Assembly (NCBI GenBank): GCA_005880795.1
Contig: VBGP01000036.1
Location: 1 to 50,110, forward strand
Length of the DNA stretch: 50,110 nucleotides
Direction of reading: 5' to 3'
Source: Chloroflexota bacterium
GTDB taxonomy: Bacteria > Chloroflexota > Dormibacteria > Dormibacterales > Dormibacteraceae
Shown: one piece after another, positions 4,637-8,251 of the stretch
How positions within the stretch are numbered: the first letter of the stretch is position 1
Layout of the letters: each line of letters opens with the position of its first letter
Notes under the pieces: generated by a model
Database searches by the model: none
What the model saw: only the letters and a program-made list of their open reading frames with translations
Told to the model about the DNA's origin: nothing
Program-made: the position numbers and the translations under genes

Positions 4637-5883
4637 GCATCCGCCGGCCTCGTGTCGTCATTGCGGGCGCCGGCTTCGGGGGTCTCACCTGCGCGCGCGG
4701 CCTGAAACACGCGCCGGTCGACGTACTTCTCGTCGACCGCAACAACTACCACCTCTTCACCCCGCTCCTGTACCAGGTCGCATCCGCGCTGCTCGAGCCC
4801 AGTGAGATCGCCCGCCCGGTCCGGCAGCTGATCCGCCCCCTGTCCAACGCGGATTTCCTACAGGCCTCGATCACCGGCGTTGACTTCGTTGGGCGACGAC
4901 TGCTCACGGACCAGGACCCGATTCCCTACGACTACCTCGTGCTGGCCACCGGCGCCCAGAGCGATCACTTCGGCAACGTGTCGGTGGCCCAGCATGGGTT
5001 GGGCCTGAAAGATCTCGACGAGGGCCTCGCGCTGCGCAACCGCATCCTCTCGCGGTTTGAAGCCTCGCGCTGGACGCGCGACCCCGACCGGCGCCGGGCG
5101 CTGCTCAGCTTCGCGGTCGTCGGGGGAGGGCCGACCGGCGTCGAGATGGCAGGGGCGATCTCGGAGCTGATCCGGCTCGTCTTGCGCAAGGATTACCGCC
5201 AGCTCGACATAAACGAGGTCCGCGTGGTGCTTATAGAAGCGGCGCCTCATGTTCTTGGAGCTTTTGTCCCGTCGCTGCGCGAGGCCGCCCGCCGCTCGCT
5301 CGAGCGCAAGGGCATCGAGGTGATGCTTGGAGCGAAGGTCGAGGCGGTGACGGACGGTTCGGTGCGTCTGGCCGGTGGCCAGGAGATTCCGGCCTGCACC
5401 GTCATCTGGACCGCCGGCGTCAAAGGCTCCGACGTCGGCAAAGCCACGGGCGTGCAGCTCGTCCGGCAGTCGCGGATCAAGGTCGACGGAACGCTGCAGG
5501 TGCCGGGCCATCCGGTGGTCTTCGTCATCGGTGACCTGGCCGGCGCCTCCGACGGTGCCGCGATGCTGCCGATGCTAATCCCCGTGGCCATGCAAGCGGG
5601 GAGGCATGTGGCGGATTCGATCTCCGACATGGTGGCCAACGGTGGCGCCCGCGCATTTCGCTACAAGGACCCGGGCATCATGGCGACCATCGGCAGGAAC
5701 TCCGCGGTGGCGCAGCTCGGCTGGGTGCACCTTTCGGGCTTTCTCGGTTGGCTGATGTGGCTCGGCGTTCACCTGGTCAACGTGATCAGCTTTCGCAGCC
5801 GCATCGTGGTGCTCGTCAACTGGGCGTGGGACTACATCTTTTACGACCGCCCGGTGCGGCTCATCGTGAGAGCTCGCCCGTGA
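4633..5883 (+). CDS. NDH-2-like NAD(P)H dehydrogenase (FAD pyridine nucleotide oxidoreductase)
   Basis: This 416-residue flavoprotein resembles type II NADH:quinone dehydrogenases, which pass electrons from NADH to membrane quinone without pumping protons. The FAD-binding GAGFGG is at residues 12-17, the second dinucleotide-binding motif VVGGGPTGVEMAG is near 158, and VFVIGDLAG near 300 is the FAD-contacting ATG-type motif. The hydrophobic and aromatic C-terminus (GFLGWLMWLGVHLVNVISF onward) is the usual membrane anchor of NDH-2. The GTG start overlaps the polymerase stop as GTGA. Frame-open sequence upstream to 3877 lies inside ligD and is not part of this gene. The following lipoprotein gene also overlaps by 4 nt, so these genes are co-transcribed. 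Confidence 0.85.
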   Translation: MSIRRPRVVIAGAGFGGLTCARGLKHAPVDVLLVDRNNYHLFTPLLYQVASALLEPSEIARPVRQLIRPLSNADFLQASITGVDFVGRRLLTDQDPIPYDYLVLATGAQSDHFGNVSVAQHGLGLKDLDEGLALRNRILSRFEASRWTRDPDRRRALLSFAVVGGGPTGVEMAGAISELIRLVLRKDYRQLDINEVRVVLIEAAPHVLGAFVPSLREAARRSLERKGIEVMLGAKVEAVTDGSVRLAGGQEIPACTVIWTAGVKGSDVGKATGVQLVRQSRIKVDGTLQVPGHPVVFVIGDLAGASDGAAMLPMLIPVAMQAGRHVADSISDMVANGGARAFRYKDPGIMATIGRNSAVAQLGWVHLSGFLGWLMWLGVHLVNVISFRSRIVVLVNWAWDYIFYDRPVRLIVRARP

Positions 5884-6569
5884 AGCGGCTGATCGCGACG
5901 ATTGCGCTAGCTGCGATTTCCGTGGCATGCGGCGGCGGGTCCACGCCGTCCGTCGACGCGGCCAAGGTGCTGCGCGATGGAGCCGCTGCCATGGCCCAGC
6001 TGCAGAGCGTCAAAGCGACCCTCAAGCTGACCAAGGGCACGGTGACCATCCAGGGCTTCACCCTGGTGAGCGCTCGGACCTCGGTCAAACTGCCGTCCGA
6101 CAGCGACACGACCTATACGGTCAAACAGCAGGACATCCTGTTCAGCCTCGAGGTGGTGATGTCCTCCGGCCATGTGTACGTGCACCTTCCGCTGTCCACC
6201 TTTCGCGAATTGACTGGCGCCGAGTCGACGACGTTTCCCGACATGGCGAAGCTGTTCGACCCCAAGACGGGTCTGCCCGCGATCGTCCCTGCCGGGGCGA
6301 GCCCCAGGTTCGTCTCGACCGATCAGGTCGGCGGCGTGAGCGCAAACCAGATCGCGACGACGTACTCCCCGGAACAGGTCCGCAGCCTGCTGGCCGACCT
6401 CAGCTCGAGCGGACCGGTGAGCGCGCGGGTCTGGGTCGATACCGGCGACCACAGGATTCGAAAGGCGGTGCTCGACGGCGCATTCGGCGACAGCGGAAAG
6501 GAAGCCGTCGTTCAGGTCGACATCTCGGGATTCAACGCACCGGTCATCATCAGCTCGCCTACTCCGTGA
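5880..6569 (+). CDS. LprG/LppX-like lipoprotein
   Basis: This 229-residue secreted protein begins with a short basic segment (MKRL), a hydrophobic core and the cysteine of ISVACGGG, a lipobox-like site although serine at -3 is not the usual residue. The mature part, with VLRDGAAAMAQLQSVKATLKL near its start and VWVDTGDHRIRKAVLDGAF near its end, has the layout of the LppX/LprAFG family of lipid-binding lipoproteins. In mycobacteria LprG binds triacylated lipids and is encoded beside the MFS exporter P55 (Rv1410). Here too an MFS exporter follows, 182 nt downstream. The GTG start overlaps the upstream stop. Family assignment is from overall pattern and context. Confidence 0.75.
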   Translation: MKRLIATIALAAISVACGGGSTPSVDAAKVLRDGAAAMAQLQSVKATLKLTKGTVTIQGFTLVSARTSVKLPSDSDTTYTVKQQDILFSLEVVMSSGHVYVHLPLSTFRELTGAESTTFPDMAKLFDPKTGLPAIVPAGASPRFVSTDQVGGVSANQIATTYSPEQVRSLLADLSSSGPVSARVWVDTGDHRIRKAVLDGAFGDSGKEAVVQVDISGFNAPVIISSPTP

Positions 6570-6747
6570 GGCGAGGTCGCGGATCATCGGCGAGAGATTC
6601 GGCGATCCACGTGGTCCCAGATCCGGGTGAAGCGCCGAGCAGCGCAGCGCGCGCATCCGTTGATGCGTAAGCGAGCAGCGCAGGCGCTGAACCCGGAGAT
6701 GGGCCGCGTGGGCGCCGAAGATCCGTCGATGACTCCGCGGCCTCGCC
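6570..6747. repeat. 178-nt imperfect palindrome (hairpin or MITE-like element)
   Basis: The whole gap between the lipoprotein stop and the MFS start folds on itself. GGCGAGG (6570-6576) pairs with CCTCGCC (6741-6747). Further in, TTCGGCG (6598-6604) pairs with CGCCGAA (6713-6719), CCACGTGG (6607-6614) with CCGCGTGG (6704-6711), and CCGGGT...AGCGCC (6623-6636) with GGCGCT...ACCCGG (6683-6696). The apex is GCATCCGTTGATGC (6653-6666). Each arm is about 85 nt with few mismatches. No convincing ORF lies within it. It could be a non-autonomous mobile element or a structured RNA. Confidence 0.8.
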
Positions 6748-6751
6748 TCCG

Positions 6752-8251
6752 TTGAACCGCAGGGTCCTGCTCGCGCTGGCAGGAGCCGGGCTTTTTGTCG
6801 CGGCCCTGGACGCGTACGTGGTCGTGACCCTGTTGCCCGCGATGATGGGCGACGTCGGCCTGACGATCGAACGTCTCGAGCAGGGGACTCCGATCGTGAC
6901 CGGCTTCCTCGCCGGCTATGTCGTCGCCATGCCGCTGCTCGGTGCGTACTCGGACGTGCGGGGCCGCGTGCCCGTGTACGTCGCTTGCATGGCCGCTTTT
7001 GCGGCTGCCTCTGTGGTGACAGCGACAGCCGGACTCTGGGACTTTGCCGGACTGCCCTGGCTGGTGGCCGGCCGGTTCATCCAGGGCCTCGGCGGGGGCG
7101 GGCTGGTGCCGCTCTCCCTGGCTCTCGCCGCCGATCTCTATCGCGGCCAGTCGCGCACTTTGGCCCTCGGCTCGGTTGCAGCGCTGCAGGAGGCGGGCAG
7201 CGTTTTTGGGCCAATCTATGGGGCCACGCTCGCCGCGGCGGCGGCCACCGCCGGCGGCTGGCGTTTTGTGTTCTGGCTCAACCTCCCGCTGGCGGCGATC
7301 TGCGCCGCGGGCCTGGTCATCGCGGCGCGCCGGGTGGAGTTTCCAGCACCTGCCGGCGCCTCCTCTATCGACTGGATCAGTGCACTGCTGCTCGGCCTGG
7401 GCCTCGCACTGCTGGTGCTGGCGCTCTACCCGGACGACCCCGAGCACCGCGCGGCCAACGGGCTGTTCGTACCGGCGGGAATCGGCGCGGTGGTCGTGCT
7501 CGGCGCTTACGGATGGCGCCACGTGCGCCGGCTCGAGACTCTGATTCCACGCGACCTCCTCCGCAGCCGAGCCTTTGTTGGCGCGGCGGGGGCGAATGTC
7601 TTGATCGGCGGCGCGTTGATCGCGACCCTTGTCGACGTGCCCTTGTTGGGGCGGCTCGTCTTCAATCTCAACCAGCTCGATTCGGGACTGCTGCTGACTC
7701 AGTTCCTGATCGGGGTGCCGGTCGGGGCGGTCGCGGGCGGATTCCTGGCGGGACGCGCCGGCGACCGCGTCAGCGCCGCGCTCGGCATGGCCGTGTCTGC
7801 GGCGGCATTCGTGCAGATCGCCGGCTGGCGCGCTGACGAGCTGTCACTGCATCTCGGTCCGCTGCGACAGGCAGACCTCGCCCTCGCCGCGTGTGGGTTG
7901 GGGTTCGGCCTGGTCATCGCGCCGTTGACCGCCGCCGTTCTAGCCTTGACTCGCGGGCAGAGCCACGGGCTCGCGACAAGCCTGGTCGTGCTGGCGCGCA
8001 CGATGGGCATGCTGGTCGGGCTCTCGGCACTTACGGCGTTCGGGCTTTACCGATTCCGCCAGATCCTCGGCACCCCGGTGCTCACCGACCCCGACCTCAC
8101 CGCCAGGGTCAAGCACCTGCAGGCGCTGGTCGCGGCCGCGTTTCTGCAGGAATACCGCGAGATTTTCCTGATTTCGGCCGCGATGTGCATGATCGCGGCA
8201 GCCGTTATCGCCTTTTCGCTACGGCCAGCACGTAGGAGTGGTGGTACCTGA
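6752..8251 (+). CDS. MFS exporter, DHA2 type, P55 (Rv1410)-like
   Basis: This 499-residue multi-pass transporter fits the DHA2 drug:H+ antiporter branch of the major facilitator superfamily. The first helix contains a membrane-embedded Asp (ALDAYVVV). The cytoplasmic loop motif GAYSDVRGRVPVY corresponds to motif A, and PIYGATLAA lies in the motif C region. A long loop between the last two helices (about residues 425-470, FRQILGTPVLTDPDLTARVK) recalls the periplasmic extension of mycobacterial Rv1410. With the LprG-like gene upstream, lipid export to the outer layers is a reasonable inference. The TTG at 6752 is the only in-frame start after the upstream TAA. The 3' end overlaps the convergent methyltransferase by 47 nt. 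Confidence 0.85.
   Translation: MNRRVLLALAGAGLFVAALDAYVVVTLLPAMMGDVGLTIERLEQGTPIVTGFLAGYVVAMPLLGAYSDVRGRVPVYVACMAAFAAASVVTATAGLWDFAGLPWLVAGRFIQGLGGGGLVPLSLALAADLYRGQSRTLALGSVAALQEAGSVFGPIYGATLAAAAATAGGWRFVFWLNLPLAAICAAGLVIAARRVEFPAPAGASSIDWISALLLGLGLALLVLALYPDDPEHRAANGLFVPAGIGAVVVLGAYGWRHVRRLETLIPRDLLRSRAFVGAAGANVLIGGALIATLVDVPLLGRLVFNLNQLDSGLLLTQFLIGVPVGAVAGGFLAGRAGDRVSAALGMAVSAAAFVQIAGWRADELSLHLGPLRQADLALAACGLGFGLVIAPLTAAVLALTRGQSHGLATSLVVLARTMGMLVGLSALTAFGLYRFRQILGTPVLTDPDLTARVKHLQALVAAAFLQEYREIFLISAAMCMIAAAVIAFSLRPARRSGGT

Follow-up and report, generated by a model that had tools for sequence, protein, structure and literature searches.

The hairpin lying between two genes at positions 6568-6749 of the window (the whole 50,110-nt stretch analyzed, contig VBGP01000036.1, GCA_005880795.1) is probably, at about 0.82, a copy of a non-autonomous, MITE-like palindromic element of Chloroflexota which inserts at TA and whose fold is conserved on one strand. 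The element occurs as dispersed copies with empty sites in relatives, shows TA duplication in recent copies and a preference for gene 3' ends, and has a strand-specific, covarying fold. No published description of it was found in the open-access literature, and it is apparently a small mobile element of uncultured soil Chloroflexota (Dormibacteria) new to the literature.

The hairpin between lprG and the exporter gene

Folding of region 6540-6780 gave a single gap-filling hairpin with an MFE of -156 kcal/mol, against a mean of -109.1 (sd 5.1) for shuffled versions (z -9.2), none of 200 equaling the native fold. The original prediction of a long hairpin filling the gap between the LprG-like and exporter genes is borne out, and its own proposed refutation, arms pairing no better than shuffled sequence, falls away. 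The best-fitting limits are 6568-6749 (GAGGC...GCCTC, 182 nt, palindromic over the entire length), with the expected apex GCATC-CGTT-GATGC at 6653-6666. At its 5' edge the hairpin takes in the final two bases of the TGA that stops LprG (6567-6569), and its 3' edge lies 2 nt short of the TTG at 6752 that starts the MFS gene. One hairpin does span the gap, but "near-perfect" was slightly too strong a description, the stem being interrupted by symmetric GA/GA internal loops and small bulges. Since these short loops break the stem, the inverted repeat recovered by an ungapped repeat finder is limited to the outer 16 nt. The features are as follows.

6568..6749, + strand (strand of the stable fold): whole probable mobile hairpin element, GAGGCGAGG...CCTCGCCTC; fold z -9.2, absent in 14 relatives, matched by covariance model R1 (G000:C197:6567-6749)
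6568..6586, + strand: outer (lower) stem, 5' arm; sequence copy-specific yet paired, outer-arm duplex -37.1 vs -23.4 kcal/mol for mixed arms
6730..6749, + strand: outer (lower) stem, 3' arm; from outer-arm duplex energies and alignment A1
6587..6729, + strand: core common to the genus copies, about 143 nt; copies of the same genome 78-91% identical over all or parts of it, up to 94% in other genomes of the genus
6625..6695, + strand: apical domain with GA/GA internal loops, recognizable in distant lineages; boundaries approximate, read from the sequences
6567..6569, + strand: LprG stop codon TGA across the junction (host T plus element GA); in the two nearest relatives a TAG runs straight into the MFS TTG
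5880..6569, + strand: LprG-like lipoprotein gene, upstream host gene (Pfam PF07161 LppX_LprAFG, E 5e-19)
6752..8251, + strand: MFS exporter gene, downstream host gene (Pfam PF07690, E 2.5e-35), adjoining lprG in 16 genomes of the genus

One frame is open across the core (6587-6729) in some copies. The loop length differs by one base among copies, so that no frame is conserved and coding is unlikely. The arrangement of an LprG-like lipoprotein with an MFS exporter is known from the mycobacterial lprG-P55 operon, and the adjacency (5880-8251) is conserved in 16 Dormibacteria genomes.

Among the 16 genus genomes with adjacent lprG and MFS genes, the element separates them only in the window genome and in one other (G013). 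The remaining 14 pairs lack it, and there the genes overlap, abut or nearly abut. The hairpin between lprG and the MFS gene is therefore an insertion. In the two closest relatives (90% and 86% protein identity) the junction is CCG-TAG-TTG and CCC-TAG-TTG, where the window reads CCG-TGAGGC...GCCTC-CGTTG. This fits entry of the element at the TA within the TAG stop codon, both TA copies having then been eroded.

Copies, empty sites and the TA target

In the window genome (3.22 Mb, 217 contigs), eight copies were found by DNA similarity (E < 1e-13) and a covariance model added two, so the search for further copies that had been proposed yields at least 10. The element is present in all 17 genomes of the genus (Ca. 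Dormibacterota, Chloroflexota), with flanking genes that mostly differ among copies. A 28-base core pattern matches 64 stretches in a named genome collection, all labeled as Ca. Dormibacterota/Dormibacteraeota or 'Chloroflexi' MAGs. Covariance model R1 gave hits in 29 of the 251 phylum genomes and 21 of the 161 genera sampled, at most 10 candidates being scored per genome, so that its copy numbers read as "at least". The positive families are f1, f2 and f3, from the same class, plus f21 and f32 elsewhere in the phylum. Cargo of phages or plasmids was rejected, since the element has no match in the viral contigs, plasmid collection or phage collection searched. A known structured RNA family was likewise rejected: Rfam covariance models gave zero matches to the window copy, and only tRNAs and weak matches antisense to tRNAs at 12 distant loci.

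The target is clearest in a recent expansion in genus g4 (G087, G118), whose closely similar copies read C-TA-[GAGGTGCGGCC...GGCCGCACCTC]-TA, while the empty sites of G118 hold a single TA. Examples are L314 (TTC-TA-[]-TA-ACCTTCG filled, CTC-TA-AACCTCG empty), L310 (GCC-TA-[]-TA-GCTG filled, GCC-TA-GTTG empty) and L309 (GG-TA-[]-TA-GTTG filled, GC-TA-GTGC empty); the duplication is also seen at L006, a copy of the window's genus. In recent copies the duplicated TA is usually that of a TAG stop codon and, as the first base of the element is G, insertion into TA|G rebuilds TAG. Filled and empty sites show for recent copies, and suggest for the window copy, that the element inserts at TA, preferentially the TA of TAG (target roughly C-TA-G). 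The TA is duplicated and the terminal G of the element restores the stop codon, so that insertion between tightly packed genes is nearly harmless. The cut is probably made by a putative TA-cutting transposase acting in trans.

The dispersed copies, the empty sites in relatives and the TA duplication of recent copies support the MITE-type element offered as one reading in the original prediction. The flanking target duplications it looked for hold in part, as TA in recent copies of the related genus and in some copies of the window's genus; in others, the window copy included, they are eroded or unclear. Joined-flank searches between close genome pairs found many more empty sites. Some junctions are messy, and several older copies lack a clean TA duplication (e.g. 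L063 compared with L062). At three sites element-end remnants persist with the core gone (L143 at the site of L004, L173 at that of L033, L328 at that of L257); these look like internal deletions resembling excision or palindrome-deletion scars. Two other origins were considered and set aside. Insertion of the core into the loop of pre-existing terminators was rejected since empty sites lack the entire hairpin, outer stem included. The idea that the outer stem copies the target flank in inverted form, prompted by the L063 and L077 junctions, was dropped, as TA duplication with about 1 nt of erosion explains most junctions.

A gene 3' end lies within 14 nt of the element at 74 of 97 genus loci (~76%), against 23 of 84 non-coding TA dinucleotides in the window (27%) that near a gene 3' end. 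This excess is indicative, since the genes come from a simple caller based on codon usage and there may be selection against promoter regions. The position at gene 3' ends, in some cases between two convergent genes, would suit a plain transcription terminator, perhaps a bidirectional one. We consider this highly improbable, because CGTTGAACCG follows the stem, with no T run at 6750, 182 nt is far above terminator length and the entire hairpin is an insertion.

Either orientation is found among the copies, which adjoin unrelated genes and sometimes lie between convergent ones; at loci with one abutting end, 26 elements are co-oriented with the gene and 42 opposite. These data bear on the proposal of a resident RNA acting in cis, as an attenuator or an element of processing or stability, which would have evolved to set the exporter's expression against that of the lipoprotein. 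A stable covarying fold between co-directional genes would suit such a role, but the same gap is empty in 14 of 16 relatives, which largely refutes it, and copies lie beside unrelated genes without keeping to one orientation. As an evolved function, this control of the exporter, suggested by the original prediction, does not hold up, and we judge a resident regulator very unlikely. An incidental effect of the element on the lprG-exporter pair is possible. By parting genes that abut or nearly abut in relatives, it would weaken their translational coupling, and the lprG transcript would gain a 3'-end hairpin.

Covariation and strand preference of the fold

In alignment A1 of 74 genus copies, 33 of 45 consensus pairs show pair-keeping changes on both sides which, together with the strand-specific fold stability described below, upholds the RNA-like side of the original prediction, a structured hairpin with covariation. 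Over the outer 32 nt per side in 84 copies, arms of the same copy form duplexes averaging -37.1 kcal/mol and arms of mixed copies -23.4. The lower stem is thus specific to each copy in sequence yet paired. Other families, and lineages elsewhere in the phylum, retain an apical domain of ~70 nt (roughly GCGACGAGCACCG-AGCGAGCGCAYC-loop-GRTGCGTGAGCGAGGAGCGCAGG), whereas the lower stems have no evident sequence in common between lineages and the element ends are more variable than the core. Most lineages have hairpins close to 180 nt long; those of f21 measure about 120 nt.

Some copies carry an extra GC-rich side hairpin of the GGGGTCCCC/GGGGACCCC type (L063, L089, L091, L102, L114, L121, L084, L085, L099, L046 and L096), which sits, depending on the copy, in the loop, in a single arm or in both. 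At one common site it is in the right arm only in G013 and G001 and in both arms in G005, a pattern that suggests exchange between copies.

When copies at one site are compared between species, their pairs show 49 double changes, of which 41 are pair-keeping, where 12.1 doubles would be expected if the two sides were independent; among the single changes, 45 kept the pair and 30 broke it. Some of these comparisons have species in common, and independent insertions may be present at a few sites, such as that of L031, L034 and L082, where the outer stems are only 45-57% alike. Apex likeness between species is 0.85-0.99, compared with 64-94% for the 800-nt flanks, and is the higher of the two in most same-site comparisons. 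It is possible that this conservation of resident copies comes from gene conversion rather than selection.

In 126 of 130 copies the + strand gives the better fold of the two strands (74/74 in the genus, 13/13 in other genera of the family, 20/20 in f2/f3 and 19/23 in f21), compared with 36 of 55 for a control stretch 250 nt away. Consensus folding (alifold) gave -70.1 kcal/mol for the + strand and -19.3 for its reverse complement. In genus copies, GU exceeds AC whether they are co-oriented with or opposite to the flanking genes, and this independence of gene orientation suggests that the strand of the element, and not the host mRNA, is what selection acts on. In a strand-neutral alignment of distant copies the GU over AC excess is absent (78:77). 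It was therefore discarded as proof of RNA-level selection, being confined to the genus, and the strand argument rests on the difference in fold energy. The conserved single-stranded fold is an apical domain carried on a long stem whose sequence drifts by paired changes. The folded strand may be needed for mobilization by the putative transposase, or for RNA stability or processing.

Mobilization and relation to known palindromic elements

A one-strand fold and a free lower-stem sequence would also be explained if the element moved as a single-stranded hairpin, either as RNA copied back or as ssDNA. Strand-specific stability in all sampled lineages, stems unrelated in sequence yet paired, and the lack of a DDE_3 element with matching ends in 42 family genomes are consistent with it. 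However, the TA duplication of recent copies points to a staggered double-strand cut, and candidate enzymes are scarce: the Y1 transposase (PF01797, RAYT-type) was found in none of the 17 genus genomes, with positive controls detected, and reverse transcriptase (PF00078, RVT_1) in only two of them (L271 in G009, L272 in G013). Both reverse transcriptase matches have one stop inside the matched stretch. Reverse-transcriptase mobilization was rejected on the rarity of RVT_1, and single-stranded movement as a whole seems unlikely.

The same Y1 result weighs on a REP/BIME-type repeat mobilized by a RAYT tyrosine transposase. REP/BIME repeats are likewise extragenic palindromes, present in many copies near gene ends, but they are 20-40 bp long, GTAG/CGTC tagged and associated with a Y1 transposase (PMC3733652). 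With ~180 nt, a duplicated TA and no PF01797 in this genus, the identification is extremely improbable.

The MITE-like reading has its own difficulties. Ends that vary more than the core are unusual for a terminal repeat recognized by a transposase, older copies lack a clean TA duplication, and no autonomous partner was found among the DDE_3 loci. IS630-type DDE_3 is present in only 6 of 42 family genomes, the window genome not among them, and the loci in these 42 genomes have no ends matching the element; an IS630 parent was rejected on both grounds. A more speculative idea, which we regard as unlikely, is that the hairpin itself is the unit of selection and movement, the apex serving as recognition handle above any lower stem that pairs, with stop-codon steering by an enzyme and a route unlike those of known MITEs or REPs.

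Taken as a MITE-like element, it would operate in the manner of small palindromic MITEs from other bacteria, among which YPAL/RU-2 and ERIC are closest in size and setting; it is set apart from ERIC, YPAL, NEMIS and RUP by their descriptions. The Yersinia palindromic sequence YPAL (RU-2, ~168 bp) is similar in size, palindromic, not A+T rich, intergenic, mobile as judged by empty and filled sites, and has a proposed effect on the stability of upstream transcripts (PMC2229807). It differs in having no terminal TA and target duplications of 3-26 bp (PMC2229807), whereas the Dormibacteria element, from another phylum, duplicates TA, favors stop codons and keeps its apex while the lower stem varies. 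ERIC (RU-1, 127 bp, enterobacteria) is also a small non-coding palindrome with TA ends and target duplication, an RNA fold and locations within co-transcribed gene pairs (PMC2229807), but differs in length and host group. The MITEs RUP (S. pneumoniae) and Correia/NEMIS (Neisseria) share the TA target, terminal inverted repeats, small size and long stem-loop transcripts (PMC2229807). The ends of RUP match a resident IS630 element (PMC2229807), while no such partner is found among the DDE_3 loci here, and in contrast to both, the full length of our element is one hairpin whose ends are the most variable part. What distinguishes it among palindromic MITEs is a conserved apex above a lower stem that varies freely but stays paired, together with the stop-codon targeting and the spread in Chloroflexota.

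For soil bacteria known mostly from metagenomes, this adds a small mobile element that is widely shared and has apparently not been described before. It unites traits that are usually separate, namely TA insertion at stop codons, a fold maintained by compensatory changes and stems with no evident sequence in common across lineages. With so many sites, both filled and empty, its movement, its choice of target and its influence on gene pairs can all be tested, and the apical domain, being conserved, offers a handle toward the protein that recognizes the element.
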